Origin: Bacilli bacterium
GTDB taxonomy: Bacteria; Bacillota_I; Bacilli_A; RF39; UBA660
Reading direction: 5' to 3'
Length of the DNA: 32,188 bases
NCBI GenBank assembly: GCA_017541325.1
Contig: JAFXZI010000009.1
Location: forward strand, 1-32,188
Each line of letters starts with the position of its first letter. The first letter of the stretch is position 1. Shown here one piece after another: positions 3,990 through 22,069 of the stretch. The notes below the pieces were generated by a model. That model made no database searches. It saw only the letters and a program-made list of their open reading frames with translations, and was not told the origin of the DNA. The position numbers and the translations under genes were made by a program.

Positions 3990-4012
3990 ATTATCTACCT
4001 CTTTCTATATTA

Positions 4013-4021: not shown

Positions 4022-4027
4022 CATTTA

Positions 4028-4036: not shown

Positions 4037-4059
4037 TATTTTAGATATGGAGTGATAAA

Positions 4060-4470: not shown

Positions 4471-4495
4471 AAAGAGCTTAATAGCTCTTTTTTAT
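4471..4495. terminator. Bidirectional terminator between convergent genes
   Basis: Perfect 8-bp stem AAAGAGCT / AGCTCTTT with a TAAT loop at 4471-4490. T-rich tracts follow on both strands. It serves the plus-strand PH-domain gene and the minus-strand zinc-ribbon gene. Confidence 0.8.
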
Positions 4496-5121: not shown

Positions 5122-5151
5122 AGTCTTCACCTATTATAAATTTAACATAAA

Positions 5152-5187
5152 ACAAAAAAATAATTCTTTATTTGACAAAGAATTATT
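5152..5187 (-). terminator. Rho-independent terminator after the extracellular anchored protein
   Basis: Perfect 11-bp stem AATAATTCTTT / AAAGAATTATT at 5159-5187 with a 7-base loop. A T-rich tract (TTTTTTGTTTT) follows on the minus strand. Confidence 0.8.
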
Positions 5188-5212
5188 TTTAATTTACATA
5201 TTTTTACTGTAT

Positions 5213-6373: not shown

Positions 6374-6391
6374 CATAACACCTCTATATTA

Positions 6392-6420
6392 ATTATAATA
6401 TATCAAAAAATATTATACAA
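6392..6420 (-). promoter_or_regulatory. Promoter for the gene at 5213-6373
   Basis: On the minus strand TTGTAT, a 17-base spacer and a perfect TATAAT. The start codon is 19 bases downstream of the -10 box. Confidence 0.7.
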
Positions 6421-6421
6421 T

Positions 6422-6448
6422 AAAAAAAGAACAATGATCTGTTCTTTT
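6422..6448 (-). terminator. Rho-independent terminator after the VirB2/TrbC-like gene
   Basis: 9-bp stem AAAAGAACA / TGTTCTTTT at 6425-6448 with a 6-base loop, followed by a T run on the minus strand. Confidence 0.75.
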
Positions 6449-6449
6449 A

Positions 6450-6749
6450 TTACACTTCATTCCAACATTTAAGAGGAGTTTCGTCGTTAGATTGTCCAAC
6501 CATATCAATTAATAAGTTTACAACGAATACCAAGAAGAATATTGATACTGCTGCGATAGCTCTCTTAATAAGTTTTCCAGTAGCAGCTTTAATTTCTTTA
6601 TCGTCGCTTGAGAAGACAGCTTTTCCAAGGTCCCATGCTCCCATAATTATTAATCCAATTGGTAAAACAAATTCAAATATTAAAAATATTAATTTTATAA
6701 ATTTAATAATAGGCCCAATACTACTGCAATCTATATCTAAAAAAAACAT
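6450..6749 (-). CDS. Two-helix membrane protein, VirB2/TrbC-like
   Basis: 99 residues from ATG at 6749. The ATG nine bases earlier touches the AAGGAG site and is too close to be used. There are two long hydrophobic helices at about 16-38 (KLIFLIFEFVLPIGLIIMGAW) and 64-86 (AIAAVSIFFLVFVVNLLI). They are joined by a charged loop, DLGKAVFSSDDKEIKAATGKLIKR. Helix-charged loop-helix with a small size is the layout of the VirB2/TrbC pilin family of type IV secretion and of similar proteins found in Firmicutes. One Cys lies near each end (DCSS and KCWNEV). It sits directly downstream of the TadZ-like gene but has a good promoter of its own at 6773-6801. No other type IV secretion genes are in the window, so a conjugation role is not supported. 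A link with the pilus is inferred from position. Confidence 0.7.
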   Translation of the reverse strand: MFFLDIDCSSIGPIIKFIKLIFLIFEFVLPIGLIIMGAWDLGKAVFSSDDKEIKAATGKLIKRAIAAVSIFFLVFVVNLLIDMVGQSNDETPLKCWNEV

Positions 6750-6772
6750 CTCATTCATCTCCTTCTAATAAA

Positions 6773-6801
6773 ATAATATCTTATTTAAATATTTATGTCG
6801 A
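6773..6801 (-). promoter_or_regulatory. Promoter for the VirB2/TrbC-like gene
   Basis: On the minus strand TCGACA, a 17-base spacer and TATTAT, each box one mismatch from consensus. Together with the next terminator it makes the downstream gene a separate transcript within the pilus region. Confidence 0.6.
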
Positions 6802-6830
6802 ATTTATAAACAAGATTTGACATTAAATTA

Positions 6831-7811: not shown

Positions 7812-7826
7812 AAGACAAAACCTCCA

Positions 7827-8273
7827 TTATATATCACATCTACCTGAACCAGATACTGCAAAGTATCCAGAAGAGCATTCTGGAATACTAGAGATATCTT
7901 TGCTTCCCTTTTTTAAATTAGGAATACCGCTTGTTTGTCCAGTTATTGCAAGTTTAGGATATAAATCTCTATTAACTAATGGCATAGAAAACTCTACAAT
8001 TAGTTTTACAGTGTAATATTTATTTTTATTTGGAGCTATATTATAACAAACACAAACTGGTCCATTATATCCTTGTCTAGCTATTACTTGTCTATCTATT
8101 ACTTCTTTTGTTTGATCCGTTACTCCTTCATATTGTTCAATATATGAAACAACAGCGTTTTTGCTACGGAAAACACGACCATAATTAATAACTATAGCCA
8201 TAAAAGCAATATAAACAAATAAGAATATTAAAACTATATATAAAAGTATTGTTCCTCCAATTGCCTCACGCAT
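7827..8273 (-). CDS. TadE-like minor pilin
   Basis: 148 residues. The short leader MREAIG precedes a hydrophobic helix, GTILLYIVLIFLFVYIAFMAIV, then INYGRVFRSKNAVVSYIEQYEG. Such a charged, amphipathic continuation of the helix is the hallmark of TadE/TadF pseudopilins. The external part has four cysteines (VCVCYN near 85-88, PECSS near 132 and GRCDI at the very end). The first six residues match those of the small pilin upstream (M-K/R-E-A-x-G), which suggests both are cut by the same prepilin peptidase after the glycine. The Shine-Dalgarno site is GAGGGTG. It lies between the major pilin and TadZ genes in the same transcript. Probably a minor subunit or initiator of the Tad pilus. Confidence 0.8.
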   Translation of the reverse strand: MREAIGGTILLYIVLIFLFVYIAFMAIVINYGRVFRSKNAVVSYIEQYEGVTDQTKEVIDRQVIARQGYNGPVCVCYNIAPNKNKYYTVKLIVEFSMPLVNRDLYPKLAITGQTSGIPNLKKGSKDISSIPECSSGYFAVSGSGRCDI

Positions 8274-8310
8274 AATATTACACCCTCTTTATTAATAATA
8301 AATTTATTTT

Positions 8311-8499
8311 TTAATGACCAGCATTGTGACCAGCTCCACCAGCAGCATCATCTATTTCAGCATTATCCTCAGCATTACTCCATCTATTTGTAATATTATC
8401 TAAAATATCTGGAACGAATGCAGTAACGAAGATAAGAATAGCAGCTACAGCAACAACTGTAACTAATGTCATATTTAATTCTCCAGTTGCTTCTTTCAT
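8311..8499 (-). CDS. Small Flp/Tad-type pilin (probable major pilin)
   Basis: 62 residues, the right size for a Flp pilin. After the leader MKEATG comes E-L-N-M-T-L, then a single hydrophobic helix (VTVVAVAAILIFVTAFVPDIL). A short polar and acidic C-terminus ends AGGAGHNAGH, which is Gly/His-rich. Cleavage after G6 would leave a mature protein of 56 residues starting with Glu. It has a very strong Shine-Dalgarno site (GGAGGGAG) and its own near-consensus promoter at 8531-8559, as expected for the most abundant subunit. It sits right after tadC and before the tadE-like gene. I read it as the major pilin; the alternative is a small scaffold subunit. Confidence 0.8.
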   Translation of the reverse strand: MKEATGELNMTLVTVVAVAAILIFVTAFVPDILDNITNRWSNAEDNAEIDDAAGGAGHNAGH

Positions 8500-8530
8500 G
8501 TTTTTGCTCCCTCCTCTCTACTATAACTTA

Positions 8531-8559
8531 ATTATAATTTATTTAGATTAGCATTTCAA
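8531..8559 (-). promoter_or_regulatory. Internal promoter in front of the pilin gene
   Basis: On the minus strand TTGAAA, exactly 17 bases, then a perfect TATAAT, ending 32 bases before the pilin start. It lies in the 74-base gap between tadC and the pilin gene and would raise pilin synthesis above that of the assembly proteins. Confidence 0.8.
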
Positions 8560-8573
8560 TATCGGTTTACATT

Positions 8574-9353
8574 TTAACCCATCATGAACATCATAGCTGC
8601 AAGCATGATTACCATTGATCCTCCACCAGTACATACTAGCATGATCATTGTTTTTCTTTCCATTACTTGTAATCTTTGCTTATATTTATCTTCTCTTGCT
8701 TTATTTTGAAGAGATGATACACTTCTTGAGAACATTATCAATTGTTGATATTTATTCTCTTGAGCACCAATTCCTAATCTATATAATAGTCTCATCATTC
8801 TCATAGAGTCTCTTACTGGATATTGAATTGCAAAATCCATGTAAGGTTGAATTGATGAATCTCCTGAATTAATTTTCTCTACCATTGTACGAAGTCCAGG
8901 TTTAAATATTTCTGGAGCATCTTCTATACTACGAGCTAACGCTACTGGAACAGTATAGTTTTGGCATAAAATTTCAAGACCTTTTAAATAGTAAGGTAAC
9001 ATTTGGTCTATTTTAATCATATATTTCTTATAATAACCTTTTAAATTGTTATAAGGCATTTTATATATTAAGAATATTACTACTATCATAAATACGAAGT
9101 TTATAAATGTAAAATTAGTAAATATTAATAGCATAATAACAGCTGAATATATAAATGTTTGTTTAATTCTTTTATTAAACAAATCATCTGGATTAATTTT
9201 TTCTCCATATTTTGCAGAAACATAGAAATCCCAATCTTTCTCTTTTAGCATTTTTATATAGAAATCATTTTCATCTATAAATTTATTTGTGTCAACAGTT
9301 CTTGTATATATAAGAGCAAACATTACAAGAGCCGCAATAATTAGTATCGTCAT
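8574..9353 (-). CDS. tadC: Tad pilus inner-membrane platform protein TadC-like (T2SSF domain)
   Basis: 259 residues. It has one helix at the N-terminus (about 2-17), two at about 66-100, a cytoplasmic T2SSF-type helical bundle (about 105-225) and a final helix pair at about 234-258 containing CTGGGSMVIMLAAMMFMM. The bundle holds the family-typical elements LPYYLKGLEILCQNYTVPVALARSIEDAPE and, after it, RMMRLLYRLGIGAQENKYQQLI. TadC pairs with TadB to form the platform that couples the ATPase to pilus extension. The start lies 2 bases after the tadB stop, and its ribosome binding site (GGGGG) is inside the end of tadB, so the two are coupled. Confidence 0.85.
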   Translation of the reverse strand: MTILIIAALVMFALIYTRTVDTNKFIDENDFYIKMLKEKDWDFYVSAKYGEKINPDDLFNKRIKQTFIYSAVIMLLIFTNFTFINFVFMIVVIFLIYKMPYNNLKGYYKKYMIKIDQMLPYYLKGLEILCQNYTVPVALARSIEDAPEIFKPGLRTMVEKINSGDSSIQPYMDFAIQYPVRDSMRMMRLLYRLGIGAQENKYQQLIMFSRSVSSLQNKAREDKYKQRLQVMERKTMIMLVCTGGGSMVIMLAAMMFMMG

Positions 9354-9355
9354 AT

Positions 9356-10264
9356 CTACTCAGCCCCCACATTCTCATTATAATATTTTTCACCATTAAC
9401 CAAAAAATAACTATTAAGCAGTACTATCGTATGCAAAGCAACCAATATTATTGGTTCTTTTAACAATTGTCTATATGTATCAACTTGGATTAAGTACTGA
9501 ATTAACATTATAAGTAAATATAGCATTAATCCATATTGAATAAATTGACGATGGAAGTTCTTCCTATCCATTCTGTCACGATATACTCCTTCAACTAGTG
9601 TATCTATATCTTGTAACATATTTTCAAGAACATCATTTGTATCTCTTGAACCTTCTTTTGTTATTTGAAGGAACAATTGGTGCATATTCTTTGTCATATA
9701 GAAGTCATATCTCTCATTCATATATGCAAGAGAATCATCAATTGTACCATTTTGATATGACATATCTATCATTATTTTTAAATCTGATAAAACTGGATCT
9801 TGTAATACTCCTGATGCATATACTCCTTCAAGAGCTTTAACAAAAGATTGTGTTGTTTGGAATTCCATTATAGTGTTTGTTGTATATACTTGTACTTGTT
9901 CAAATATAAATTCACTATATAATCTTTTACATCTTAAGTATTGTAAATATGGAATAATAGCAATTGCTGCAGATACATAGATTATAGATATAAATATATT
10001 ATAAAAGTACAAATATGATACTAAGAATGCTCCTCCACCGAATAGAGCAACTTGTACACCATAATCTTTAGCTGTATAATTTTGACCTAATTCTTTAACC
10101 TTTTCACGAACTGTCTTATATGAAAATGGAGCATATTTATCATAAACAACGGTAGCACCATTGATTACGAATTTATATAAAGAATCTCCTTTTTTTACAT
10201 AATAAAGTACTGCAAAGGTTCCTAGAAATAGTAAAATTATTAATTCTAATACAGGTATATGCAT
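9356..10264 (-). CDS. tadB: Tad pilus inner-membrane platform protein TadB-like
   Basis: 302 residues with the TadB layout: an N-terminal helix (about 4-22), a helix pair at about 68-107, a cytoplasmic T2SSF-type domain (about 108-235) and two C-terminal helices (about 240-261 and 271-290). Within the domain, TTNTIMEFQTTQSFVKALEGVY and ENMLQDIDTLVEGVYRDRMDRK match the conserved helices of the family. It works with TadC as the membrane platform for the CpaF/TadA ATPase. It begins 16 bases after the ATPase gene and is followed at once by tadC. The start codon is the first ATG of the frame, with GAAGG almost touching it and AAGGG further back, so the exact start is slightly uncertain. Confidence 0.85.
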   Translation of the reverse strand: MHIPVLELIILLFLGTFAVLYYVKKGDSLYKFVINGATVVYDKYAPFSYKTVREKVKELGQNYTAKDYGVQVALFGGGAFLVSYLYFYNIFISIIYVSAAIAIIPYLQYLRCKRLYSEFIFEQVQVYTTNTIMEFQTTQSFVKALEGVYASGVLQDPVLSDLKIMIDMSYQNGTIDDSLAYMNERYDFYMTKNMHQLFLQITKEGSRDTNDVLENMLQDIDTLVEGVYRDRMDRKNFHRQFIQYGLMLYLLIMLIQYLIQVDTYRQLLKEPIILVALHTIVLLNSYFLVNGEKYYNENVGAE

Positions 10265-10280
10265 ACCTTCACCGACCCTT

Positions 10281-12017
10281 CTATCCTACATTAGGATTAT
10301 TATTTTGAACTGGAATAGTATTGTTTGTAACTTGAGTAACAGGTGCTTGTTGTACTGGTTGTTGAACAGGAGGTGCTACAGTATTTACAACAGGAATTGT
10401 TTGTTCAGTTTGAGGTGCAACAACTACTTTTGGTTGTTCCTCCGTCTTAACTTCTACAGTAGTAGTTTGAACTTGTGGTATTGGATTTACAACCTCTTCT
10501 TTTGGTTTTTCAACACTAGCTACTTGTGGTTGAACCTCTTTTTTCTCTTCGACAACTGCTTCTTGTGCAACAGGAGGCGCAGTATCTTCTTTTGGAGGAT
10601 CTACCTTTTTCTCATCTACTACAGGAGTAGTTTCAACCTTTTCTTCTTTTTCCTCTTTGTTTTCTTGACCTTCTGCACTTAATTCATCATCATAATTTTG
10701 AATTTTTTCAAGGTTACCATTACTCTCTCTAATATTACTAATATCTATACCTTGTCCTTCTATATATTGAAGTAAGTGTTCACTTATAGGTTTATAAGTT
10801 ACTTCTCCACTAATAGTTTTTTGATAAATTACATTAGAAACACAATTATTATCATCATCTACATAGAATTCACATACTTCTCCAATTTCACGAATATATT
10901 TTCCTTGAGTTGGATCAAAACGACCTCTTAAATATACTCCTAATTGAATGTAACGATACATTGTATTTAAGAATTGTCCTACATCGATATTTGACTCAAG
11001 CAAACTATATAAACGATATGGGATATTTGATGCTTTATCAGCGTGGATTGTTGATAATATAAAGTGTCCTGATGATATAGAGTTACGTACAGCTGTAACA
11101 GCTTCTGCACTACGTACCTCTGAAAGTAATATCCATATTGGGTTTTGTCTCATGCAGGTAACAAGAACATCAGAATAACTTGCTATATTATTAGTCTTCA
11201 TTGCAACAATATCACGATGTGGATAAATTCTATCCAAGTGAAGTTCTAACGTATCCTCAATAGTAACTATTTTTTCATTTTCAAAAGTATGACTTGCTAG
11301 ATATTTTAAGAACTCCGTTTTACCTGAACCAGTTTCTCCACACATTATAATGTTACAGTGTCCTTGAACTGCTTTAATTAAGAAATCATGCACACTAAGT
11401 GATACATAATTATCTTCCATTAATTTTTCTTTTTTAAGACGAATCTTTGCTGGTGTTTTACGGAAAACTACCGCAATACCATTTCTTGCAATAGATTCAT
11501 GAATAAAGTTCATACGTAACTCAGCTGATTCTGAGTCCAAGAATGGATGCGCCATATTAAATGTTTTACCCATTACGTTAGAACATTGGAATGCTATTTT
11601 TTCAATAAGAGAATCATTTACTCCAGGTTCTTCTACTCTATAAACACCTTTACTTAAAGTTTTTAGCCACAACTGACCACCATTACTATATGAAATATCT
11701 GTAACATCATCATCTTCTAGAAATTTCTTTAAAGGTCCAAATTCCATAGATGAGAAAATACTTTCATTTCTTTGTCTCTTTTGAAGTTCTTCTTCATCTC
11801 TTAATTCTTGAACCATGTCTAAATCTTCAAAACCTAAATCATTGTTAGCTTTTACTGGTTCAGTATTTTCAGTTGAAGCTGGAGTTGGTTCTGGAGGTGC
11901 AGTTTCTTCTACAACTGGCGCTGGTGCTGGTTCTTGTTGTTGTGTAGGAATTGGTATTTGTGGCACTTGTTGATTATTTAGTTGACCCATTCCATTTAGA
12001 TTCATCGCTTCCTCCAT
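10281..12017 (-). CDS. cpaF: CpaF/TadA-type pilus assembly ATPase with disordered N- and C-terminal tails
   Basis: 578 residues. The motor of the pilus: a VirB11-like hexameric secretion ATPase. The core covers about 85-425. It has Walker A GETGSGKT at 227-234, an Asp-box TIEDTLEL at 252-259, Walker B-like IWILLSEVRSAEA at 294-306 with E300, and a His-box GHFILSTIHADKA at 317-329, all intact. Before the core comes a Gln/Pro-rich stretch (about 10-55). After it comes a 150-residue tail rich in Glu, Pro, Val and Gln (about 430-578), including VAPQTEQTIPVVNT-like blocks. Tails of this size are unusual for CpaF. The start has AGGGAG 7 bases upstream; an alternative ATG four codons in also has a GGAGG site. 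It is the second gene of the pilus transcript. Confidence 0.93.
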   Translation of the reverse strand: MEEAMNLNGMGQLNNQQVPQIPIPTQQQEPAPAPVVEETAPPEPTPASTENTEPVKANNDLGFEDLDMVQELRDEEELQKRQRNESIFSSMEFGPLKKFLEDDDVTDISYSNGGQLWLKTLSKGVYRVEEPGVNDSLIEKIAFQCSNVMGKTFNMAHPFLDSESAELRMNFIHESIARNGIAVVFRKTPAKIRLKKEKLMEDNYVSLSVHDFLIKAVQGHCNIIMCGETGSGKTEFLKYLASHTFENEKIVTIEDTLELHLDRIYPHRDIVAMKTNNIASYSDVLVTCMRQNPIWILLSEVRSAEAVTAVRNSISSGHFILSTIHADKASNIPYRLYSLLESNIDVGQFLNTMYRYIQLGVYLRGRFDPTQGKYIREIGEVCEFYVDDDNNCVSNVIYQKTISGEVTYKPISEHLLQYIEGQGIDISNIRESNGNLEKIQNYDDELSAEGQENKEEKEEKVETTPVVDEKKVDPPKEDTAPPVAQEAVVEEKKEVQPQVASVEKPKEEVVNPIPQVQTTTVEVKTEEQPKVVVAPQTEQTIPVVNTVAPPVQQPVQQAPVTQVTNNTIPVQNNNPNVG

Positions 12018-12047
12018 AGTAATTCTCCCTTTCTATTATTTTAAAAT

Positions 12048-12974
12048 TTATTGTTTTTTATTAGTATCTTGTCCTGTTTGCGCTTTGGTATCTGTACCAT
12101 TTTGTGTACCGTTTTGTGTTCCATTTTGAGTACCAGTTTGATTTGTTTGATCATCTATTTTAGCTGTTCCATCTGTTAAGTCTATTCCTTCCATACGTCC
12201 AGAATATTCAAATTCATCAGCACGTGAATCAATATATTCTTCAAATGCATCAGAAACAACTTTAGCTTCTTCTTCTACTTCGCTAGCACTTCTTCCAGTT
12301 GGAACTGGTCTAATATCGACACCTAACTTAGCACATTTTAATAAATTGTAGAATTCTTTTCTATCAACTGCGAACATGATATAAGTCGTTTGTCTAACCT
12401 CATCAGAATTTTCAAAAACATTTTCTCCGTTTGCAGTTTTAACAGCAAGTACTCTTACGTCTTCTATATATGTACCAACCATAGGTTGTTGTGTAGTTGG
12501 ATCAATTACACTTACATATATATCCATATAACTATCTGGTAAAATAGAGTTTACGTAACTCATGTCCATGTTAACTTTAAAGTATGTCAAAACTTGACCT
12601 TTCTTTAATTCGTAAACAGGCTCATTTTGTCTTTCTTTAACCACTGATGACTCATAGAACAAACTTCCTTTTGGAATTAAAGTGTTTATTGCAGCATAAT
12701 GGTTAATAATATCATCTTTCTTTAAAATAACTGACCCTTTCATCTTGTCTAGGGCAGCTTTTGCTACTTGCATATAACTAATTTTTTCTTCTGTAATCTT
12801 TTCTCTTGGTTGAATATCATCATTAGCATATGGTACTTGTACTGGTTGGATAGCACTATTAATCTTCATAGTATAACCAACATATAATACAGCTATACCA
12901 ATAAATGCACATAAAATTGTAACCGTATTTCTATTTCCTAAAAACTTTTTTAATTTAATTTGTGTACTATTCAT
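12048..12974 (-). CDS. cpaB: CpaB/RcpC-like pilus assembly protein (SAF-type domain)
   Basis: 308 residues from ATG at 12974; the GTG three codons earlier is part of the Shine-Dalgarno AGGGTGA. An N-terminal membrane helix lies at about 18-37 (TVTILCAFIGIAVLYVGYTM). The extracytoplasmic part starts like other CpaB proteins, with PVQVPYANDDIQPREKITEEKI, then VILKKDDIINHYAAINTLIPKGSLFYESSVV, a SAF-like block in which the 'I-x-x-G-x-x-[LF]' pattern is clear, and a second block (SILPDSYMDIYVSVID). The C-terminus carries a short tandem repeat of T-Q-N-G (three and a half copies), a low-complexity tail. CpaB guides pilus assembly; in Gram-negatives it works with a secretin, which this organism seems to lack. 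It is the first gene of the pilus operon. Confidence 0.8.
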   Translation of the reverse strand: MNSTQIKLKKFLGNRNTVTILCAFIGIAVLYVGYTMKINSAIQPVQVPYANDDIQPREKITEEKISYMQVAKAALDKMKGSVILKKDDIINHYAAINTLIPKGSLFYESSVVKERQNEPVYELKKGQVLTYFKVNMDMSYVNSILPDSYMDIYVSVIDPTTQQPMVGTYIEDVRVLAVKTANGENVFENSDEVRQTTYIMFAVDRKEFYNLLKCAKLGVDIRPVPTGRSASEVEEEAKVVSDAFEEYIDSRADEFEYSGRMEGIDLTDGTAKIDDQTNQTGTQNGTQNGTQNGTDTKAQTGQDTNKKQ

Positions 12975-13032
12975 ATTATTCACCCTTTCTATTTTAATAT
13001 TTAGTACATAACTCTATTACACCATCGTGTTA

Positions 13033-13050
13033 TATAGGCGACTCCCTATA
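13033..13050. promoter_or_regulatory. Inverted repeat in the pilus operon leader (possible operator)
   Basis: TATAGG, six bases, CCTATA: a perfect 6-bp inverted repeat and the only GC-containing block in an otherwise AT-rich 277-base gap. It falls at the predicted transcription start of the candidate pilus-operon promoter (13056-13084). It could be a repressor site or a short hairpin at the mRNA 5' end. The role is inferred from position only. Confidence 0.35.
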
Positions 13051-13055
13051 ATAAT

Positions 13056-13084
13056 ATTTTAGTATTTTTAAAATTCTACTTCAA
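13056..13084 (-). promoter_or_regulatory. Candidate promoter of the pilus assembly operon
   Basis: On the minus strand TTGAAG, 17 bases, TAAAAT, about 82 bases upstream of the cpaB-like start. Several weaker combinations exist nearby, so this is the best candidate rather than a firm call. The rest of the 12975-13251 gap is AT-rich with no ORF. Confidence 0.35.
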
Positions 13085-13176
13085 TATTAATTATTACTTG
13101 ATTAACTAACTTTTCAAAATTTTACACAATAAAAACGCTAGTCACACTATACAAACCCTCTAGTATAAATTAATTA

Positions 13177-13182
13177 TATAAT
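13177..13182 (+). promoter_or_regulatory. Possible -10 box for the thioredoxin-like lipoprotein
   Basis: A perfect TATAAT, 70 bases before the start codon, without a convincing -35 box. An imperfect inverted repeat AATAACA / TGTTATT (about 13180-13208) lies just downstream and might be regulatory. Confidence 0.3.
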
Positions 13183-13251
13183 AACAATTATCAAAATACA
13201 ATGTTATTGTTTATTTTAAATAAATATGTTAATATTTTTTAGAGGTGTTTT

Positions 13252-13671
13252 ATGAATAAAAAGATTATTACTAGTCTTTTATTTGTATTATGTTTCTTTA
13301 TTGTTGGATGTGGCAAAACTACTAATTATCTAAACGATATATCATACAAAGAATTCAATAAAAAAATTAATAATAAAGATTCTTTTGTATTAGAGATTGT
13401 ACAAACTGGATGCCATAATTGTACAGAATTTACACCTAAATTCAAAAGCGTGTTAGAAGATAATAAAGTAGTCGCTTATAGTCTTAATCTAACTGATCTA
13501 AGTCAAGAAGATGCAACAAAGTTTTTAGAAGACTATAATGTTGATGGTACTCCAACAGTAATCTTCTTTAAAGACGGCAAAGAAACTAGTACAATGGATA
13601 GACTATCAGGAGCTAATGTATCTAAAGATACAATAAAATCTAAGTTAACAAAAACCGGTTTTATTAAATAA
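13252..13671 (+). CDS. Thioredoxin-like lipoprotein
   Basis: 139 residues. The signal peptide MNKKIITSLLFVLCFFIVGC ends in a lipobox (I-V-G-C, lipidated C20), so the protein is anchored on the outer face of the membrane. A thioredoxin fold follows: the active-site CHNC is at 54-57 (QTGCHNCTEFTPKFKS) and the cis-proline motif GTPTVIFF is at about 99-106 (P101). The dipeptide between the cysteines is His-Asn, unlike the Gly-Pro of reducing thioredoxins and closer to oxidase or isomerase types. It is the only plus-strand gene within the pilus/Cys-rich region. It lies between the divergent pilus operon and the convergent Cys-rich gene cluster, which makes disulfide formation or isomerisation of those proteins the natural guess. 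SD is GAGGTG. Confidence 0.88.
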   Translation: MNKKIITSLLFVLCFFIVGCGKTTNYLNDISYKEFNKKINNKDSFVLEIVQTGCHNCTEFTPKFKSVLEDNKVVAYSLNLTDLSQEDATKFLEDYNVDGTPTVIFFKDGKETSTMDRLSGANVSKDTIKSKLTKTGFIK

Positions 13672-13673
13672 AA

Positions 13674-13699
13674 AAAAAGAACGTTTATACGTTCTTTTT
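13674..13699. terminator. Bidirectional terminator between the lipoprotein gene and the Cys-rich cluster
   Basis: Perfect 10-bp stem AAAAAGAACG / CGTTCTTTTT with a 6-base loop. T or A runs on both sides let it act on both convergent transcripts. Confidence 0.85.
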
Positions 13700-14198
13700 A
13701 TTTTGAAGCGAATGGTTCATCTGTTTCAAGGATTCCAGATAGAACATTAGTAACTGTTGCATCATCTACTTTTCTCATACCAAATGCTCTTTGGATGAAA
13801 CTAAAGTTTTGAGTTGATTCAATTTTAACTGTAACTTTAGGAGGACATTCATCAATATCTAGGAATGTAATCTTATAGTTCCTATTTAAATCAGCTTCTT
13901 CAGAGAATTTAGCAAGGAATAATTCTACGAATCTTTCCTTTATAATTCTAACTGTTCCAGGAACTCCTGCATTACAATGCACTGATTCAGGATCTGATGT
14001 TTGAGTAATACCATCATATCCAAGTCCTTGTTGATATGCAACTTTATCTACTGCATCTAACATAGCAGATTTAGTTATTTCTTTTAATGAGTAATAGTTT
14101 TGTTGGTCACTAATTGTAACTTCTCCAAATACATTGATTAGTACAATTCCAAGTAAACCTAAAACTAAGAATAAATAACCCCAAAGTGATACTTTCAT
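13698..14198 (-). CDS. TadE/pseudopilin-like membrane protein following the Cys-rich modules
   Basis: 166 residues. One N-terminal hydrophobic helix (about 5-27: LWGYLFLVLGLLGIVLINVFG) leads into an amphipathic continuation (QQNYYSLKEITKSAMLDAVDKVAYQQG). This is the shape of TadE/TadF-like minor pilins. The outside part has two cysteines (HCNAG near 74 and DECPP near 118), likely one disulfide. From memory it resembles a Firmicutes DUF family found with such loci (possibly DUF5411), which I cannot verify. It starts 16 bases after the large Cys-rich gene, with a strong GGAGG site, and ends at the bidirectional terminator, so it is the last gene of that transcript. It probably links the Cys-rich proteins to the pilus machine, which is inference. 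Confidence 0.7.
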   Translation of the reverse strand: MKVSLWGYLFLVLGLLGIVLINVFGEVTISDQQNYYSLKEITKSAMLDAVDKVAYQQGLGYDGITQTSDPESVHCNAGVPGTVRIIKERFVELFLAKFSEEADLNRNYKITFLDIDECPPKVTVKIESTQNFSFIQRAFGMRKVDDATVTNVLSGILETDEPFASK

Positions 14199-14214
14199 TT
14201 CCTAACCTCCTATC

Positions 14215-17200
14215 CTATCTACAATCCATTGTAGCATCATTTGTTTCATCATACTTTTCTATTAAACCATTGATTTCTTCATGTATGAATTTACTACAAT
14301 ATGCCCTTGGATCAACAACACTTGTATATTTATCTGATTTTCCAAAAGACTTATATACTGTTGTATCTTTATATCCTGTTTCATCCGTTTTGTTCTTTTC
14401 AACTATTTTTTTCATTTGTTTTAATTGTTTAGATGTAATTTCAAATGAATATTCATAATTATCAGATTTACCATCAGTTAAATCTCTATAATTTGCTTCA
14501 TCAGTATTTGTAATATATTTTTCTTTACCATACCAGTTATTTCCTATATTACCAGTTGTTGTTCCACGATCTGGGAATGGATTACTTAATGATATATTTC
14601 TGTATAAATGTTCAGCTCCACCCTTACAAGTTTGTAGATCTCTTGTACATACTTCTTTACATTCAGTTAATTTTCCAGACTCAGTTCCATATAAAGCATC
14701 ACACTTATCTACACAACAACTATAAGTACATCCACAATCTCCATCACATTGTTTAGTACAACACTCATCATAGAAACATGTTTTATATTTAGCTGTATCT
14801 TCAGCAGCATATTTACCACAAGTCTCATCACAATCTGTACAAGTTTTTACTACTGTTTGCCAGTTACATCCTTCACACATTTCAGGACAGTATTTTGCAC
14901 GACATACTTGGTTAGAACCACAATATGCATCACAACTACATTTTTCTTTATAACATGCTATATATTCATCTGATCCTTCAGTATACATATCACATGCTGT
15001 ACAATATTTAGCAGTTAAATTATAGTCACACTTGTAATCATATGATAACTCATCACATAATCCTCCAAGTAATGATAATTTTAATTTATCAGGTACACCG
15101 TTAACTTCATTTACATAGTCAACAATATCTTCTCCATTGAATTCTGGGAATGTATATCCGTATTCAACAACCTTACAGAATCCATTAGCAGCTGTAACAT
15201 CTTTATCACATCTTTCATCAGGAGGTTTAATTCCTTTTTCAACGTGATATACTGTACCAGCAGTATTAGCTTGAGTAGATACATAACTATCTGGTATTGA
15301 GTATACAATCATTTCTTCATATTTAATTGTATTTCCTCCACCATCTATTTTTCCACCAGTACCTTTACATACATAGCCTTGACCTTCAATTGTTACTGTT
15401 TGAGTTCCCTTTGCATCATATCCGTTCATAACACATAAATAACTCTTTTTAGTAATATCAGTTTCTCCTACAGGAGTACATGTAAGTGGTATTAATTGGA
15501 TAGGTGTATCTTCAGAACCTTGCTTCTTTTCATATTTATATGTTTTTAAAGTAACTTCATTTTTAGTTAAATTCTCAGGAGTTTTTTCTGTAGAAATTAC
15601 ATTAAATCTTGTTTCTGCGTTAACTTTTGTCTTAGTTAAATCTTTAACTATTTGATCATAATATGATTGAGCAGTTTCTTGAATCTTTATATTCTTATTA
15701 ATTCTTTCTAATCTCTCAGAATCTTTTTCATATTTTTTTGCAGTTCTATATTCTTCAAGCATTTTTTCAGCTCCAGCTTTCGCTTTTCCCATAGCTTGAA
15801 TATCTGCATATAATTGTGAATTTTTCTTTAAATCTTCATCAAAATATTCTGCAGTTCTATCTTTCTTATTATCTCTTTTTGGTACAAACCAATATACTCC
15901 AGGATGATTTTTTCTATAGTTTTCATTAGTTTTGTACTCAAGTTGACATTTTCTTGTATAAGATACAGCATATGCAAAGTGAAGATTTGATAGTTTAGAG
16001 TCACTTAAATATAAAGTAGGCTCATTAGGAAGATTCTTTAAGTTCATTGTTTCATCACAATTAATTCTAAAATATTTTATTTTTGAATAATAGTGACTTG
16101 CAAGAACGAATTTTACTTCATGATCATCTTCATTTTTATTTTCATCATAACAAACTGTAGCTGATACAGAATCACTCTTACCATCTGTATTAGTTGAGTT
16201 TGCAGGATCACATACTGCTTCTTTGTGTTTTACCTTACTTGGATCAGCTTTATAATCTTCACATTTATTACCAGGGCATCCACCTTCAGGCTTTACAGTT
16301 GTACATCCAGTAAAACATGTGTTAAAGTTATCTTTTTGGTTTTCATTACACCATGAGATAGCACAAGCTGCTCTTTCAGGAGTACCATCTTTTGTATATT
16401 CACAAGAAGATTCACAAGTATATCCACAATTCCAACAAACTGAACGGATATTCCAAATAGCAAAACCTCTTGATACGTTACATGCTGCTTGATTAGCTTC
16501 TTTATATCCCCCAACCATGTAACTAGTACTAGTATATGATGTTTTCTTAATTAAAGTTGGAACTATATTTAAATTAAGAACTTCTTTATCACTTACTCTA
16601 AAGTTTTTCTCTCCAACATCTGGGTCTTTACCACTTTCAATACGTAATGCATTATATAATGGTCCATATCCATGAACTAACGCAGATTCAGAAACTGTTC
16701 CATAGTAATGGTCAGCACCATTTTTCCAGAATCTATATAATACTTCTGCAGTTATATAATAACTATGAGTGTTACTCATCAAGTCATCTAACTCTTTTTC
16801 TGTTAAACCAAACAAAGCTTTAACTTCATTTAAATTTTTAGATCCGCCCTTTTCAAGTTTATATAATAAGTTGGTAGAATACCAACCACCAGTTGGTTTA
16901 TCACCATCATGAGTAAATACCCAGTCGTTAACACTACCATTTTTGAAAGCTTTATGTAGTTTTCCTGTATTATCATATTTTACTTGGTTTTTGTCTTTAA
17001 GAGCTGAATATTGAGCATAGCTAAGTGGGTGATCTCCACCATAACCATCTTTATACTTTGAATTTCCTACTGATGGACAAGATGCTTTAATTTTTAAGTT
17101 AGGATTTGATGGGTTACTATATCGACCATATCCAAGAGAATCTGTTCCCCAAACATCTACTCCATGACCAACTAGTTGAATTCCTGATGCACCTTTACCA

Positions 17201-17418
17201 TTATATTTATATATTTGGAATCTAACACCAACATAAGTATAATCAGATGTGCTTAAGCATGTTACACTACCACATCCACCACCATGCCCAGTTGGATCAA
17301 CTGGACGAGAAGATGTAGCTCCACCATCAATTCCAGGAGTAGTACATACTTGAGCATAAGCGCCAACCGGAATCAATGTTATTATCAATAATAATATTAA
17401 TGTTCTTATCTTTCTCAT
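14215..17418 (-). CDS. Large secreted cysteine-rich protein, module copy 1
   Basis: 1,067 residues. The signal peptide RTLILLLIITLIPVGAYA is cut before QVCTT. In order: an N-terminal domain (about 55-290) beginning VGVRFQIYKYNGKG and containing GVDVWG and YYITAEVLYRFW; a first Cys-rich zone (about 320-405, with CWNCGYTCESSC); a Lys/Glu-rich coiled coil (about 540-600); a beta-rich part; a second very dense Cys zone (about 787-932, with 27 Cys by my count, including CCTKQC and YSCCVDKC); then NPFPDRGTTTGNIGNNWYGKE near 940 and a polar C-terminus ending DCR. There is no transmembrane segment or LPXTG motif after the signal peptide, so it is secreted or held by a partner. Its ATG overlaps the stop of the upstream anchor gene (ATGA). 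It is a clear paralogue of 18244-21276. The family is unknown to me; an adhesin role is likely. Confidence 0.85.
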   Translation of the reverse strand: MRKIRTLILLLIITLIPVGAYAQVCTTPGIDGGATSSRPVDPTGHGGGCGSVTCLSTSDYTYVGVRFQIYKYNGKGASGIQLVGHGVDVWGTDSLGYGRYSNPSNPNLKIKASCPSVGNSKYKDGYGGDHPLSYAQYSALKDKNQVKYDNTGKLHKAFKNGSVNDWVFTHDGDKPTGGWYSTNLLYKLEKGGSKNLNEVKALFGLTEKELDDLMSNTHSYYITAEVLYRFWKNGADHYYGTVSESALVHGYGPLYNALRIESGKDPDVGEKNFRVSDKEVLNLNIVPTLIKKTSYTSTSYMVGGYKEANQAACNVSRGFAIWNIRSVCWNCGYTCESSCEYTKDGTPERAACAISWCNENQKDNFNTCFTGCTTVKPEGGCPGNKCEDYKADPSKVKHKEAVCDPANSTNTDGKSDSVSATVCYDENKNEDDHEVKFVLASHYYSKIKYFRINCDETMNLKNLPNEPTLYLSDSKLSNLHFAYAVSYTRKCQLEYKTNENYRKNHPGVYWFVPKRDNKKDRTAEYFDEDLKKNSQLYADIQAMGKAKAGAEKMLEEYRTAKKYEKDSERLERINKNIKIQETAQSYYDQIVKDLTKTKVNAETRFNVISTEKTPENLTKNEVTLKTYKYEKKQGSEDTPIQLIPLTCTPVGETDITKKSYLCVMNGYDAKGTQTVTIEGQGYVCKGTGGKIDGGGNTIKYEEMIVYSIPDSYVSTQANTAGTVYHVEKGIKPPDERCDKDVTAANGFCKVVEYGYTFPEFNGEDIVDYVNEVNGVPDKLKLSLLGGLCDELSYDYKCDYNLTAKYCTACDMYTEGSDEYIACYKEKCSCDAYCGSNQVCRAKYCPEMCEGCNWQTVVKTCTDCDETCGKYAAEDTAKYKTCFYDECCTKQCDGDCGCTYSCCVDKCDALYGTESGKLTECKEVCTRDLQTCKGGAEHLYRNISLSNPFPDRGTTTGNIGNNWYGKEKYITNTDEANYRDLTDGKSDNYEYSFEITSKQLKQMKKIVEKNKTDETGYKDTTVYKSFGKSDKYTSVVDPRAYCSKFIHEEINGLIEKYDETNDATMDCR

Positions 17419-18146
17419 TTTTTCTTTACCCCCAAATCAATTTTGGCTTTTTTCTTATCATCAGATACTAGTTTAAATATAACTCCAGCAATACCTGCAA
17501 TAATAAGAATTGTAATTGGAACTGTTATTCCTGCGTTATCTATATACATATCAATAACGCTTTTTTTCTTTGTAGCTGTTGCTTTTTCTTTTTTCTTCTT
17601 TTCTTCTTTATTTTCTTTGTACTCTTTAGCTTGCTTTGCAACTTCTACTTTAAATTCTTCATTTACATACTTTGAAGTATCTGCATTTACTGCACATATA
17701 GGATACTCATTAGTATGTCCAACACATTCTTCAGCTTCACTGTATCTGTTATAAAAAGGTAATTTTACAGGAATTGATCTAATCTTTTCTCCGTTACATC
17801 CAGATTTTTGAGTACCATATATTTGAACCCTAAGTTTGTATCCTCCACTAATCATTCTAATAGTTAATACTCCATTTTTAGCTTCACTACTTGAATAAGT
17901 ATTATTACCAATTCTAACCTCAAAATTATCTGAAATATTTGATATATATAAATCATGATAATATAGCGAAGGATCGTAATCTCCTTCTGGACTTCTTTCC
18001 TCTTTTACGAGTTCATAATTTACTTCTATTAGATTGGCTTCTGTTTTTAAATCATTTAAATTTTTACATGTTGCTGCATCAACTTTAACATTAAAAACAA
18101 ATGCACTAAATATAAGAAGTAAAATAAACATTATTTTCTTTCTCAT
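17415..18146 (-). CDS. Exported protein with C-terminal membrane anchor, module copy 1
   Basis: 243 residues. Signal peptide KIMFILLLIFSAFVFNVKVDA, then an outside domain (about 26-160) with cysteines at TCKN, SGCNG, EECVG and PICAV. A Lys/Glu-rich helical spacer (about 165-195) follows, then a transmembrane helix at about 206-228 (AGITVPITILIIAGIAGVIF) and a basic cytoplasmic tail ending KIDLGVKKK. It is a paralogue of 21278-22045: SGC/TGC-GGE-IR-I-LP-YN and the tail motif are shared. The last codons TTG GGG G also form the ribosome binding site of the Cys-rich gene, whose ATG overlaps this stop by four bases. Tight coupling and matched duplication suggest that this protein anchors or chaperones the large partner at the membrane. 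Promoter at 18173-18201. Confidence 0.82.
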   Translation of the reverse strand: MRKKIMFILLLIFSAFVFNVKVDAATCKNLNDLKTEANLIEVNYELVKEERSPEGDYDPSLYYHDLYISNISDNFEVRIGNNTYSSSEAKNGVLTIRMISGGYKLRVQIYGTQKSGCNGEKIRSIPVKLPFYNRYSEAEECVGHTNEYPICAVNADTSKYVNEEFKVEVAKQAKEYKENKEEKKKKEKATATKKKSVIDMYIDNAGITVPITILIIAGIAGVIFKLVSDDKKKAKIDLGVKKK

Positions 18147-18172
18147 CTTCCCACTCCTATCATACTAATATT

Positions 18173-18201
18173 ATTATAATTTTTTTAAAAGAATAATTCA
18201 A
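18173..18201 (-). promoter_or_regulatory. Promoter of Cys-rich module copy 1
   Basis: On the minus strand TTGAAT, 17 bases, perfect TATAAT, 27 bases before the anchor gene. It lies directly downstream of the terminator of copy 2, so each copy is its own transcription unit. Confidence 0.75.
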
Positions 18202-18208
18202 CTAATTT

Positions 18209-18245
18209 TAAAAAAAAGATAAAGATGAATTAATACATCTTTATC
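18209..18245 (-). terminator. Strong terminator after Cys-rich module copy 2
   Basis: Perfect 10-bp stem GATAAAGATG / CATCTTTATC at 18218-18245 with an 8-base loop, followed by eight T on the minus strand. It overlaps the stop codon of the gene at 18244. Confidence 0.85.
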
Positions 18246-21200
18246 ATTTACAGTATACATCTGTAGATTTATAATCTATATTCATACTTTTTAACTGATC
18301 ATTTAAAAATTGACTACAATATGCACTTCTTGATTTTGTTCCTTTTGCTTTTGTTGATTGTTTAAAGAATTTATATGCTGTTGAACCTTTATATGATTGT
18401 CCAGCAATATTTTCATTTGAAGATCTTATTGCTCTTCTTATTGCTTTTAAATCATTTGAATCAATATCAAAGGAATATTCATATTCATCATTCATACCAG
18501 ATGTTTTATCATAATATCTTCCATTAATATTATCAGCATCAGTTATTATTTGTTCTTTATTATACCAGTTTAATCCAATACTTCCAACTGTTGTACCACG
18601 ATCTGGGAATGGATTAGCTTGAGATATAGATCTATATAGATATCCAGAATTATCTCTAGGACAATCAGTTATAATACATTTTTCTATTGCAGTTGTGTTC
18701 CCTGCATATTTTTCATTACACTTACTAACACAGCACCCAGAAAGACATCCTAAATTACCATTACATTTCTTATTACAGCATTCATCATAGAAACAATCTA
18801 AATATTTTTCTGGTTTAGTCTTTAATGATCCACACATATCATCACAATCATCACAAGAATCTGTTTCTTTTAACGTTTTCCAATTACAACCTTCGCATAA
18901 TTGTGGACAATACATTGAACGACAAACTTGATTTGCTCCACAAAATGAATCACAACTACATTTATCAGATAAACATTTTTTATATGCTTCTGAATTATGA
19001 TTTGTAATATATGCACATGCTTCACAATAATTTTCTTCAAAGTCGTAATCACAGTTATAAGTTAATTTAAACTCATCACAACTTCCACCTTCAAATTCTA
19101 AGACTATTTTTTTATTAGCTGCATTTACTGTTCTTATATAACTATTTCTATCATTACCATCAAACGGAGCTAGTGCATAAGAATACTTAACAACTTGGCA
19201 AAAACCATTTGGTGTTGAAATAGCATCTTGGCATTCTTCTTTTTCAGTAAATGGTCCAACATCATCAGTATGAGCACCAACATAACTATCAGGAGTTGTA
19301 TATATTACAGATTCCTTATAAGTATATCTTGTATTAGTATTCTTTACTGCTGTTCCGCCTTCTCCATTACATAAATAAGTATTTCCGTCTATTTTTACAT
19401 TTGTTACATTTGTTCCAGCATTAGTTAGACAAATAAGTCTTTCTTCAGTAACTACTTTGCTATCAGTTTTACAAACAATAGGAATTAATTGAACAGTAGT
19501 CTTTCTAAGATCTGTTATCTCAGCATTTGATTTATAATCAAATTTTCTTAAAGTAATTTTATTTGCTTTCAAATTATCTGGAGCTTTATCATCAGTAATT
19601 GTTTTAAGTCTTTGTGTTGCAGTATTTTTTGTATTATTAAGTTGAGTTGAAATCTCAGCTATATTCTCTATAACTTTCTTTTGAATATCAATTTCCTTTT
19701 TCTCAGCTTTTTCTTTTGTTAAACTATCTATCTTTTTCTCTGCTGCTTTTTTAGCTACAGCTAATGAATCTATATCATACTTAATCAAACTATTATTATA
19801 GTTTTCAGTCCAACCATCAGAACTTCCTGGTTTAGAACGATAATATAATGTACAAGTTTTAGTATAGTCTAGTCTATAACTAAATTGTATATACATTGGT
19901 TTTTCTGAATCTAGATATATATATTGATTATTTGGCAAGTTTTTAAAATTCATCTTATTATTACAAGTTATTTTATAATATTTAGTTGTTTGATAATTAT
20001 ATCCAGTAACAACATAAGATTCGTCCTTTTTATCATTAAATGACTTGTTGTCGTCATAACATACATTTGCTTCTAAAGTAATTTCTCCACCATTTTTCTC
20101 TTTATTAAAATCTTTACAAGCTTTGGTCTTTTCAGAAGTTGATACTCTACTAGCTCTAAATGCATCACATTTTTTACCATCAGAACTAACACATCCAATA
20201 TTTTTTGGTGTTCCTTCACGACATTCATTTATACAACTAGTTATTTCGCTTCCTGTTTTGTTGCCATTACACCAAGCAACTGCACAAGCAACACGACCAG
20301 CAGTATCAGCTTTAGTATTCTTACAATCTTCTTTACAAGATTTCGCACAATCCTTACAAACTTCTTTGATGTTCCATGCTTCCCAACCATATGCATAATT
20401 ACAAACAGTTTTAATTGAAACAGGATGATATCCCCAGTTTTCAAACGGAACACTAGAAGGCCAAACTTTTTTAATATATTTTGGAACAAGTCCATCTACA
20501 TCAGGGTCATTTGGAGTTGTTATTAAAATGTTATTAGAATATCCAGATCCATGTGTATATCCTGTTTCTGATGGAGTTCCATGGAAATATGTCCCATTAT
20601 GCGCATCTATATATTGATACATTACTTCAGCAGTAACATAATAATTTTTAGGTTTTTCAAGAAGTCCTTGTAATTCTTTATCTGACATTTTGAAAATACT
20701 TTTTACTGTAGCATAATCACCTTTTAATAAAGGATCAAAGAAATTAGTTTTTAACCATCCTGATTTAGGTTCAGCTCGATCATGATAATAATCAAAAGCC
20801 CAAGTTGCAACTTTATATTTATCCCTTGCTGTTGCTAAAGATGAGTCATAATAAACATTTCCATATTTACCTGTTCTATATTCTTTTCCACTAACAGAAA
20901 GTTTAGCTCTCTTTGCTCTAGCAGCTCCTAAAGTTCCCGGCCAAGAACAATCATTTATTTTTAAGTTTAAGTTATTATTACTTGGTTTTGTAAACATTCC
21001 ATCATTAGGAGTAACTCCCCAAACATCTGCACCTTTTCCTAATAGAACAATGTTACTTTTACTCGTTACTTTATATACTTGGAATCTCATACCAATTCTA
21101 AGAGGTGGATAATTTATACAAGTATTTCCATCCCAGTTATCACAACCACTACCAGTTGAACTTCCAAAAGGGTGAGAACTACCTCCACCTGAAATCAAAC

Positions 21201-21276
21201 TCGAAGAACATTGAGCATTTACATAAGTAGGAACAAATAATACTAATAATAACAAAAATAATATCTTCTTCTTCAT
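18244..21276 (-). CDS. Large secreted cysteine-rich protein, module copy 2
   Basis: 1,010 residues from ATG at 21276, chosen for the GGGGGAT site 9 bases upstream; an in-frame ATG at 21297 would overlap the previous gene and has no such site. Signal peptide KKKILFLLLLVLFVPTYVNA before QCSSS. The domain order equals that of 14215-17418: VGMRFQ-like start (here IGMRFQVYKV), GADVWG, YYVTAEVMYQY, first Cys zone (about 304-382), a coiled coil (about 495-545), a second Cys zone (about 730-875, 25 Cys by my count, with nearly identical spacing and the blocks CSCDSFCGANQVCR and FYDECCNKKC), then NPFPDRGTTVGSIGLNWYNKE near 885. There is no anchor after the signal peptide. It is clearly diverged from copy 1, so the duplication is old and the copies may bind different targets. 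Confidence 0.85.
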   Translation of the reverse strand: MKKKILFLLLLVLFVPTYVNAQCSSSLISGGGSSHPFGSSTGSGCDNWDGNTCINYPPLRIGMRFQVYKVTSKSNIVLLGKGADVWGVTPNDGMFTKPSNNNLNLKINDCSWPGTLGAARAKRAKLSVSGKEYRTGKYGNVYYDSSLATARDKYKVATWAFDYYHDRAEPKSGWLKTNFFDPLLKGDYATVKSIFKMSDKELQGLLEKPKNYYVTAEVMYQYIDAHNGTYFHGTPSETGYTHGSGYSNNILITTPNDPDVDGLVPKYIKKVWPSSVPFENWGYHPVSIKTVCNYAYGWEAWNIKEVCKDCAKSCKEDCKNTKADTAGRVACAVAWCNGNKTGSEITSCINECREGTPKNIGCVSSDGKKCDAFRASRVSTSEKTKACKDFNKEKNGGEITLEANVCYDDNKSFNDKKDESYVVTGYNYQTTKYYKITCNNKMNFKNLPNNQYIYLDSEKPMYIQFSYRLDYTKTCTLYYRSKPGSSDGWTENYNNSLIKYDIDSLAVAKKAAEKKIDSLTKEKAEKKEIDIQKKVIENIAEISTQLNNTKNTATQRLKTITDDKAPDNLKANKITLRKFDYKSNAEITDLRKTTVQLIPIVCKTDSKVVTEERLICLTNAGTNVTNVKIDGNTYLCNGEGGTAVKNTNTRYTYKESVIYTTPDSYVGAHTDDVGPFTEKEECQDAISTPNGFCQVVKYSYALAPFDGNDRNSYIRTVNAANKKIVLEFEGGSCDEFKLTYNCDYDFEENYCEACAYITNHNSEAYKKCLSDKCSCDSFCGANQVCRSMYCPQLCEGCNWKTLKETDSCDDCDDMCGSLKTKPEKYLDCFYDECCNKKCNGNLGCLSGCCVSKCNEKYAGNTTAIEKCIITDCPRDNSGYLYRSISQANPFPDRGTTVGSIGLNWYNKEQIITDADNINGRYYDKTSGMNDEYEYSFDIDSNDLKAIRRAIRSSNENIAGQSYKGSTAYKFFKQSTKAKGTKSRSAYCSQFLNDQLKSMNIDYKSTDVYCK

Positions 21277-21277
21277 A

Positions 21278-22045
21278 TTATATATCCCCCAAATCAACCT
21301 TAATTCTACTTTTATTATCTCGTTTAGTTTTTATTACTATTAAAATTACCAATATTATGAATGATATTGTAATAGGAATTGTTAAATCTTTATTATTTAA
21401 ATACCAATTCTTAAAACTTATATAAAAAGGTTCCTTTTTCTTTATAGCAGTTTCTACAGTAGGATGTTTTTCGTCATATATTCTTTTTTCTTTTTCTAAT
21501 TCTGCTTTAAATTGTTCATCATTAGCTATTGCTGAAGTATTTGATGTTTTTGAACAAACTTTATATTTATCTTGATAACCTTCACATTCAGGATAGACAC
21601 TATATACATTATAATATGGTAGTCTAAACTTAATAATTCTTATTAGTTCTCCACCACATCCTGTTTTATATGTTGCATATATTCTAATTTTTACGTTACT
21701 ACCACCAGCTAGAAATAAATTATTAAAATATAATTTTCCATCTTTTACTTCATTATAATATTTAGTATTCTCTCCAACTTCTACAAAAAATTCTTCCATT
21801 ACATTATATAAAATTAAAGAATAATGATAAGTATCTTTCATTGCACCAGCTGGTAATTTTTTTATATCACTATATTCTTTTACATATGCATTTAATACTG
21901 TTTCATAGTCTATTTGTTCTGCAATTTGTTTTAAATTATTTTTTATTTCTTTTGTACATGTTTTTTCTTGAGCATTTACTTTAAAATTAAAAATAAATAA
22001 AAAAATAAATATAGCATATACAACAATAAATATTTTCTTTTTCAT
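21278..22045 (-). CDS. Exported protein with C-terminal membrane anchor, module copy 2
   Basis: 255 residues from ATG at 22045; the ATG two codons earlier lies on the AGGATAGG site. Signal peptide KIFIVVYAIFIFLFIFNFKVNA, outside domain with cysteines at KTCTK, TGCGG, PECEG and KVCSK, a charged helical spacer (FKAELEKEKRIYDEKHP), a transmembrane helix at about 219-240 (DLTIPITISFIILVILIVI) and a basic tail ending RIKVDLGDI. It has the same layout and the same four-cysteine pattern as 17415-18146. Its stop is one base from the ATG of the Cys-rich partner, and the GGGG of its last codons is the partner's ribosome binding site. Probably the membrane partner of the protein at 18244-21276. Confidence 0.82.
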   Translation of the reverse strand: MKKKIFIVVYAIFIFLFIFNFKVNAQEKTCTKEIKNNLKQIAEQIDYETVLNAYVKEYSDIKKLPAGAMKDTYHYSLILYNVMEEFFVEVGENTKYYNEVKDGKLYFNNLFLAGGSNVKIRIYATYKTGCGGELIRIIKFRLPYYNVYSVYPECEGYQDKYKVCSKTSNTSAIANDEQFKAELEKEKRIYDEKHPTVETAIKKKEPFYISFKNWYLNNKDLTIPITISFIILVILIVIKTKRDNKSRIKVDLGDI

Positions 22046-22069
22046 AATCATCCTATCCTATCATTATAA

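Follow-up and report, generated by a model that had tools for sequence, protein, structure and literature searches.

PilY1 proteins of type IVa pili are about 1000 amino acids in size. They are soluble, with a type I signal peptide, a variable N-terminus and a conserved C-terminus, and are encoded together with minor pilins, M. xanthus having three such clusters; PilY1 is located at the pilus tip, on a minor-pilin complex, and primes the pilus (PMC7541494). In Myxococcus, the Kil Tad pilus has four exchangeable minor-pilin tips with many predicted disulfides (PMC12075869), and Miller et al. (2022) described DUF5411-CpaF-GspF operons with an internalin-like protein in Roseburia, Ruminococcus and Eubacterium (PMC9523054). 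Tad pili are widespread, but for Gram-positive gut bacteria little is known of what occupies the tip, and our literature searches found no paper on the Tad pili of the large family of uncultured gut Bacilli (the host family) that includes the genome studied here.

Two tandem pairs at the head of a Tad operon

The window, by which we mean the whole stretch of 32,188 nucleotides analysed, contains two pairs of genes, each for a membrane-anchored partner and a giant protein, at 18244-22051 and 14215-18146 on the minus strand, at the head of a Tad operon. Transcription runs in the order partner B, giant B, partner A, giant A, DUF5411 and then CpaB-CpaF-TadB-TadC, and the features are as follows:

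21278..22051 (-), partner B, 257 aa; open reading frame (ORF) and family alignments
18244..21276 (-), giant B, about 1010 aa, 51 Cys; ORF and homology to giant A
17415..18146 (-), partner A, 243 aa; ORF, alignments and AF2 model
14215..17418 (-), giant A, 1067 aa, 53 Cys
13698..14198 (-), DUF5411 (PF17424) protein, 166 aa, TadE-like, pilin-type; Pfam E 1.6e-35
13252..13671 (+), thioredoxin-fold lipoprotein with CHNC motif and lipobox IVGC; Pfam Thioredoxin 8e-11
12048..12983 (-), CpaB/RcpC-like protein; Pfam RcpC 8.3e-06, below its curated cut-off
10281..12017 (-), CpaF/TadA-type ATPase; Pfam T2SSE 3.9e-25
9356..10264 (-), TadB-like platform protein, multi-TM; by position and topology
8574..9353 (-), TadC-like platform protein; by position and topology
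8311..8499 (-), small Flp-like pilin candidate, 62 aa, MKEATGELNMT and then a hydrophobic helix; ORF
7827..8273 (-), second TadE-like protein, 148 aa
6831..7811 (-), cytosolic protein, 326 aa, no Pfam match; putatively TadZ/CpaE from its conserved position
6450..6758 (-), VirB2-like small membrane protein, start of the T4SS-type half

The initial annotation had described the interval 13698-22045 as a tandem duplication of a two-gene module, and this holds: both pairs are ORFs in that place, and the giants are homologous over their full length (E 4.3e-169, 38% identity, residues 4-1059 of 1067). The interval also takes in the DUF5411 gene at 13698-14198, which had been called TadE-like, correctly as to place and topology; its product matches PF17424 with 122 bits against a gathering cut-off of 30, and it is the third element of the module, duplicating with the pair in relatives. 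The start of giant B is most likely the ATG at 21276, because the listed TTG at 21297 would overlap partner B, and partner A overlaps the ATG of giant A by four bases. In a search with giant A, giants A and B were the sole copies in the 1.25 Mb genome.

Giant A comprises an N-terminal domain, Cys zone 1 (319-412), a long predicted helical stretch (about 524-610), which agrees with the shared central coiled coil noted at the outset, Cys zone 2 (761-931) and a conserved C-terminal block (932-1067). The second zone holds 27 Cys in giant A, 25 of which have an aligned Cys in giant B, matching the counts of 27 and 25 first given, and 50 of the 53 and 51 Cys of the two proteins align, as against the 2.8 that chance would give in 973 aligned columns. 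The C-terminal block, first recognised as NPFPDRGTT, is kept across the host family as YRxIxLxxPFPxR...GxNW...IT; these last 136 residues are the best conserved part of the giants, with a mean column conservation of 0.50 versus 0.30-0.40 elsewhere and 21 strongly conserved columns. By simple hydropathy rules, which were used for all signal peptides and membrane segments in place of SignalP, the giants have an N-terminal hydrophobic helix followed by an Ala-type (A-x-A) cleavage site and no further membrane segment, as in a PilY1-like soluble exported protein with a type I signal peptide.

That no named family could be recognised was borne out for the giants by searches of Pfam, NCBIfam and PDB sequences, none of which gave a relative, and by Pfam rescans of 16 family members, which gave no match; for the partner, no family model was found in Pfam or NCBIfam and no PDB sequence match rose above chance. 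Weak Pfam matches of giant B to AAA_11, and of one to three of 42 giants to CBM_14, XkdX and TED, were set aside as chance; the thioester (TED) match, to PF08341 in one of the 42, had an E value of 0.0087, too weak to count. The giant model was weak (mean pLDDT 59.4), and the fold search made from it matched the central helical stretch only. Two short giant relatives of 406 and 414 aa, with 4-6 Cys, were seen at L173 5009-7483, so Cys richness and great length are not essential features.

The partner consists of a signal peptide, a sandwich domain, a charged helix, a single C-terminal membrane helix as anchor and a short basic tail, in line with the exported protein with C-terminal transmembrane anchor first proposed, with Cys 27, 117, 141 and 151 (partner A numbering) invariant in family alignments. 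In the AF2 model of partner A (mean pLDDT 90.9), about seven strands form a sandwich, which is followed by a helix of 42 residues and a membrane helix; the ectodomain is thus predicted to be an Ig/fn3-like sandwich, as is that of partner B by homology. A fold search retrieved fn3/Ig-like sandwiches with no clear best match (Z at most 7.2, rmsd 2.6 over 73 residues), and matches at Z of about 7 would reflect a common arrangement that tells no function. A partner-profile match was also present within a 327-aa multi-membrane-span protein of a T4SS-type half (L101 16195-17178). In much of the host family, the gene immediately before the partner encodes a conserved protein of some 535 aa that has about five membrane helices and gave no match in Pfam (L042 13648-15243, L040 1845-3461, L114 3249-4847); the window's operon lacks it.

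Downstream of the module the Tad core is present, with a CpaF/TadA ATPase, a CpaB/RcpC-like protein and the platform proteins TadB and TadC, the latter two recognised by topology and order only; the TadB-like protein is 57-94% identical across the host family. The Flp-like candidate, assigned by place and sequence rather than by profile, has a counterpart in 13 of 13 relatives examined. The gene at window positions 5213-6376 encodes a protein of 387 aa, with a hydrophobic helix like that of pilins at the N-terminus and a GSGTKTDPYIVK motif, common to relatives, at the C-terminus; its NCBIfam matches were weak and to surface-associated proteins only.

In many relatives the Tad genes are directly followed by genes for VirB2-like proteins (weak matches to PF18895), TrbL/VirB6, PrgI, a VirB4/TraG ATPase and a peptidoglycan hydrolase. 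In the window genome (G000) this T4SS half is found at the beginning of another contig, L157, which also encodes a VirD4-type coupling protein and, beside TrbL, a paralogue of the VirB2-like protein; in the sister genome G006 a single contig carries both halves, separated by unrelated genes, and they can be more than 10 kb apart in the window's genus. Conjugation-type T4SS modules, containing VirB2-like, TrbL/VirB6, PrgI and VirB4/TraG proteins, a SpoIID+glucosaminidase hydrolase and a VirD4-type coupling protein, were seen at L157 (G000:C2) 3642-13934, L106 14484-20846 and L074 15191-20111, and such a module is joined to, or near, the Tad genes in many host-family genomes. Near the T4SS half of L157, the product of a gene at 1353-1910 carries the N-methylation motif of type IV pilins (PF07963), in a genome in which no prepilin peptidase was detected.

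Synteny, copy number and rates in the host family

Whole-genome searches of 145 host-family genomes, nearly all of different genera and mostly metagenome assemblies, found the giant in 69, the partner in 96 and DUF5411 in 119. Gaps between giant and DUF5411 were at most 1 kb in 61 of 70 cases, and the order partner, giant, DUF5411, CpaB-CpaF-TadB-TadC was recurrent. A second sample came from a TadB-alignment search of named genome contigs, a search of these with giant A alone having given no match; it yielded 71 DUF5411 loci from MAGs of uncultured Bacilli, 'Tenericutes' and Erysipelotrichaceae, many from animal gut and including Candidatus Faecisoma merdavium. Directly upstream of the 71 DUF5411 genes were a giant (by profile) in 55, another large ORF in 2 and the partner alone in 12. 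Giants occurring mostly without the partner and far from tad genes, a pattern that by the initial annotation's own terms would have refuted it, were not what we found: in 39 of the 44 loci that could be checked, the giant was immediately preceded by the partner, and a search not conditioned on Tad genes found a giant match followed by DUF5411 on the same strand in 61 of the 69 giant-bearing genomes. The 12 loci in which the partner precedes DUF5411 with no giant between were L114 (4882-5954), L106, L090, L092, L100, L122, L125, L131, L149, L132, L098 and L089, and Candidatus Faecisoma merdavium is among them; several are preceded by genes that we take to encode pyruvate formate-lyase and its activase. 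Among 296 genomes sampled across the class, partner matches were confined to the host family, and DUF5411 reached at least one other family (G585), with CpaB and Tad genes; no giant match was found in G585, in which the contig ends close upstream of DUF5411.

The duplication in the window is not unusual, since two or three copies recur in other genera, and copy-number change is a habit of the host family, the unit duplicated being the pair or the triple. For example, G061 has three giants and at least two partners, G092 has two giants and G075 has two partner-giant-DUF5411 sets; duplication of the module with its own DUF5411 was also found in G004, G007 and G008. In G004 and G007, two giant classes, with 50-59 versus 30-31 Cys, are both present, each with its own DUF5411, which falls into the corresponding class. 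Orphan giants away from both DUF5411 and partner were found in G117, G094 and G138. In the giant tree, giant A of the window grouped with the third copy of G006 and giant B with its first two (SH-aLRT 98-100), and the partner tree agreed, indicating that the split between A and B is older than that between the two species, as the first reading of an old duplication had supposed, and that the pairs stayed together; the trees of partner, giant and DUF5411 have matching splits. Between the window genome and G006, giant A is 50%, giant B 42% and partner A 61% identical, as against 82% for DUF5411, 92% for TadB, 90% for a neighbouring lipid kinase and 83-90% for most neighbouring genes, the giants being the fastest-evolving products of the locus. 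These rates and the conservation of the C-terminal block are consistent with, if not proof of, exposure of the variable part and a docking role for the constant one.

Cysteine pairing and oxidation

Obligate anaerobes tend to keep Cys out of exported proteins, and a bias toward even Cys counts serves as a sign of oxidative folding (PMC12453122). Outside the high-Cys clade to which the window belongs, 29 of 33 complete giants had an even Cys count after predicted cleavage, with counts from 26 to 52. Within that clade, the mature count was odd in 12 of 12 giants with a Cys at most about four residues from the mature N-terminus and even in the single giant without one; no probability is attached to this parity because the giant sequences are related, and the cleavage sites were set by simple rules. 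Mature counts leave out signal-peptide Cys (two each in G004_up and G007_up, one in G005_1). The N-terminal Cys is Cys25 of giant A (codon at window 17344-17346), with counterparts in L030, L031, L032, L033, L036, L038 and L039. The even counts suggest that the giant ectodomain is fully disulfide-paired, and the odd ones that a single N-terminal Cys is left over in the window's genus, perhaps for an intermolecular bond.

The thioredoxin-fold lipoprotein, encoded between DUF5411 and CpaB on the opposite strand, has PDI/PedC-like NCBIfam matches below threshold, is syntenic in the window's genus and some other lineages, and is the natural candidate for an oxidase/isomerase acting on the giants. 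Searches for the membrane recyclers VKOR and DsbD found none in the window's genus. A protein of more than 50 Cys in small-genome gut Bacilli contrasts with the exclusion of Cys from the exported proteins of obligate anaerobes (PMC12453122), raising the question of how such a giant is oxidised without a known recycler.

A candidate pilus tip and its described counterparts

By analogy with known tips, the partner, giant and DUF5411 most likely represent a swappable tip adhesin module of a monoderm Tad pilus, a reading to which we give a probability of roughly 55%. The giant would be exported by Sec and oxidised outside the membrane, in the window's genus probably with the help of the adjacent lipoprotein; the membrane-anchored partner would hold it during assembly, its conserved C-terminal block would dock on the pilin-type DUF5411 protein, and DUF5411 would prime the filament. 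At the pilus end, the N-terminal and central parts, variable and stabilised by disulfides, would then be displayed to bind a surface or another cell, and tandem copies would be alternative tips. The earlier suggestion of a pilus-linked adhesin or surface complex thereby gains stronger genomic support and a more specific form, in which the tip location, docking order, disulfide state and adhesive function are still what we infer.

This reading is favoured because the gene order recurs and the linkage appears in a search unconditioned on Tad genes, because the module duplicates with its own DUF5411 and the trees split alike, and because the giants evolve fastest, as expected of exposed binding parts, with the C-terminal block as their best conserved part. 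It is also favoured by the even Cys counts, read as full disulfide pairing, by a logic shared with the PilY1 and KilLMN tips, and by the presence of a Flp-like pilin and, in 106 of 117 host-family genomes, a prepilin peptidase. Several points count against it. Docking on DUF5411 is postulated for a giant whose model is poor; in DUF5411 no residue is clearly conserved as a prepilin cleavage site, the Gly of WG not being invariant; the 12 of 71 loci with partner and DUF5411 alone indicate that the giant is not always needed there; and orphan giants adjoin neither partner nor DUF5411. In addition, no prepilin peptidase was found in the window genome, which is 97% complete, though most relatives have one, and an assembly gap may be responsible; a non-pilus machine, considered for this reason, was dropped in view of the relatives.

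Of the other explanations, the one that survives best, although we regard it as unlikely, is a membrane-anchored surface adhesin, in which the partner is the permanent membrane anchor of the giant and the link to Tad merely regulatory. The near-constant position of the partner directly upstream of the giant, its layout of exported domain, helix and membrane anchor, and the co-duplication of the two all fit such an anchor, but the linkage to DUF5411 and Tad in most genomes would be left unexplained, as would partner-DUF5411 loci without giant and giants without partner. That the Tad/GspF machinery is a secretion system with the giant as cargo, as in the Clostridia operons of Miller et al. (2022), seems to us quite improbable: a secretion role was predicted for operons of CpaF, GspF and DUF5411 with an internalin-like protein (PMC9523054), and in many relatives the Tad genes adjoin a T4SS-type half, but the giant carries a Sec-type signal peptide of its own, a monoderm host, which the lineage suggests, would have no obvious need of a second export step, and no secretin was seen in the loci read. 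Least probable is that the whole locus is one contact-dependent transfer machine whose giant recognises the recipient, since, although Tad genes adjoin those for VirB2-like, TrbL/VirB6, PrgI, VirB4 and hydrolase proteins in many relatives and G000 also has a VirD4-type coupling protein, no relaxase was noted in the parts read, the two halves can be far apart in the window's genus and the giant is located at the Tad end.

If the module is a Tad pilus tip, it would be a concrete candidate across the host family, defined by three genes, naturally variable in copy number and with exposed parts that evolve fast, and tip exchange would become testable outside Myxococcus. A wider picture, which we regard as doubtful, would be a single chromosomal contact machine of Tad pilus and conjugation-type T4SS core, with exchangeable, fully disulfide-bonded tips and genus-specific intermolecular disulfides through the single conserved Cys of the mature N-terminus, in bacteria in which VKOR and DsbD were not found.

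Among described systems, the operons of Roseburia, Ruminococcus and Eubacterium are alike in combining DUF5411, CpaF and GspF with a large surface-type protein (PMC9523054), but that protein has remote internalin-B homology, and Cys-rich giants and a partner are not described. Bulleidia extructa likewise keeps a Tad operon in a reduced Gram-positive (Bacillota) genome (PMC12786226), but has TadE, TadF and TadG and no described giant/partner pair. The giants resemble PilY1/PilC in size, type I signal peptide, lack of a membrane anchor and variable N-terminal and conserved C-terminal parts, and their genes likewise lie beside a pilin-type gene, in several clusters per genome as in M. xanthus; they differ in being Cys-rich, in having a dedicated membrane-anchored partner and in belonging to a Tad rather than a T4aP operon. 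Neither Pfam, searched with 42 giants, nor the sequences of the PDB gave a match to the PilY1 domain, a beta-propeller, which the weak giant fold model does not argue against; with no propeller detected we would not file the giants as PilY1. With KilLMN/TadEFG they share several paralogous tip clusters per Tad machine, variable distal domains, many predicted disulfides (PMC12075869) and a TadE-like protein, here DUF5411. However, the giant is not pilin-like, has a Sec-type signal peptide and, by the simple rules used, no retained N-terminal pilin helix, for which reason it was not filed as TadG/KilN, and the anchored partner is a separate protein. By analogy, the module would thus follow the same logic as the PilY1 and KilLMN tips with other parts, unrelated in sequence.
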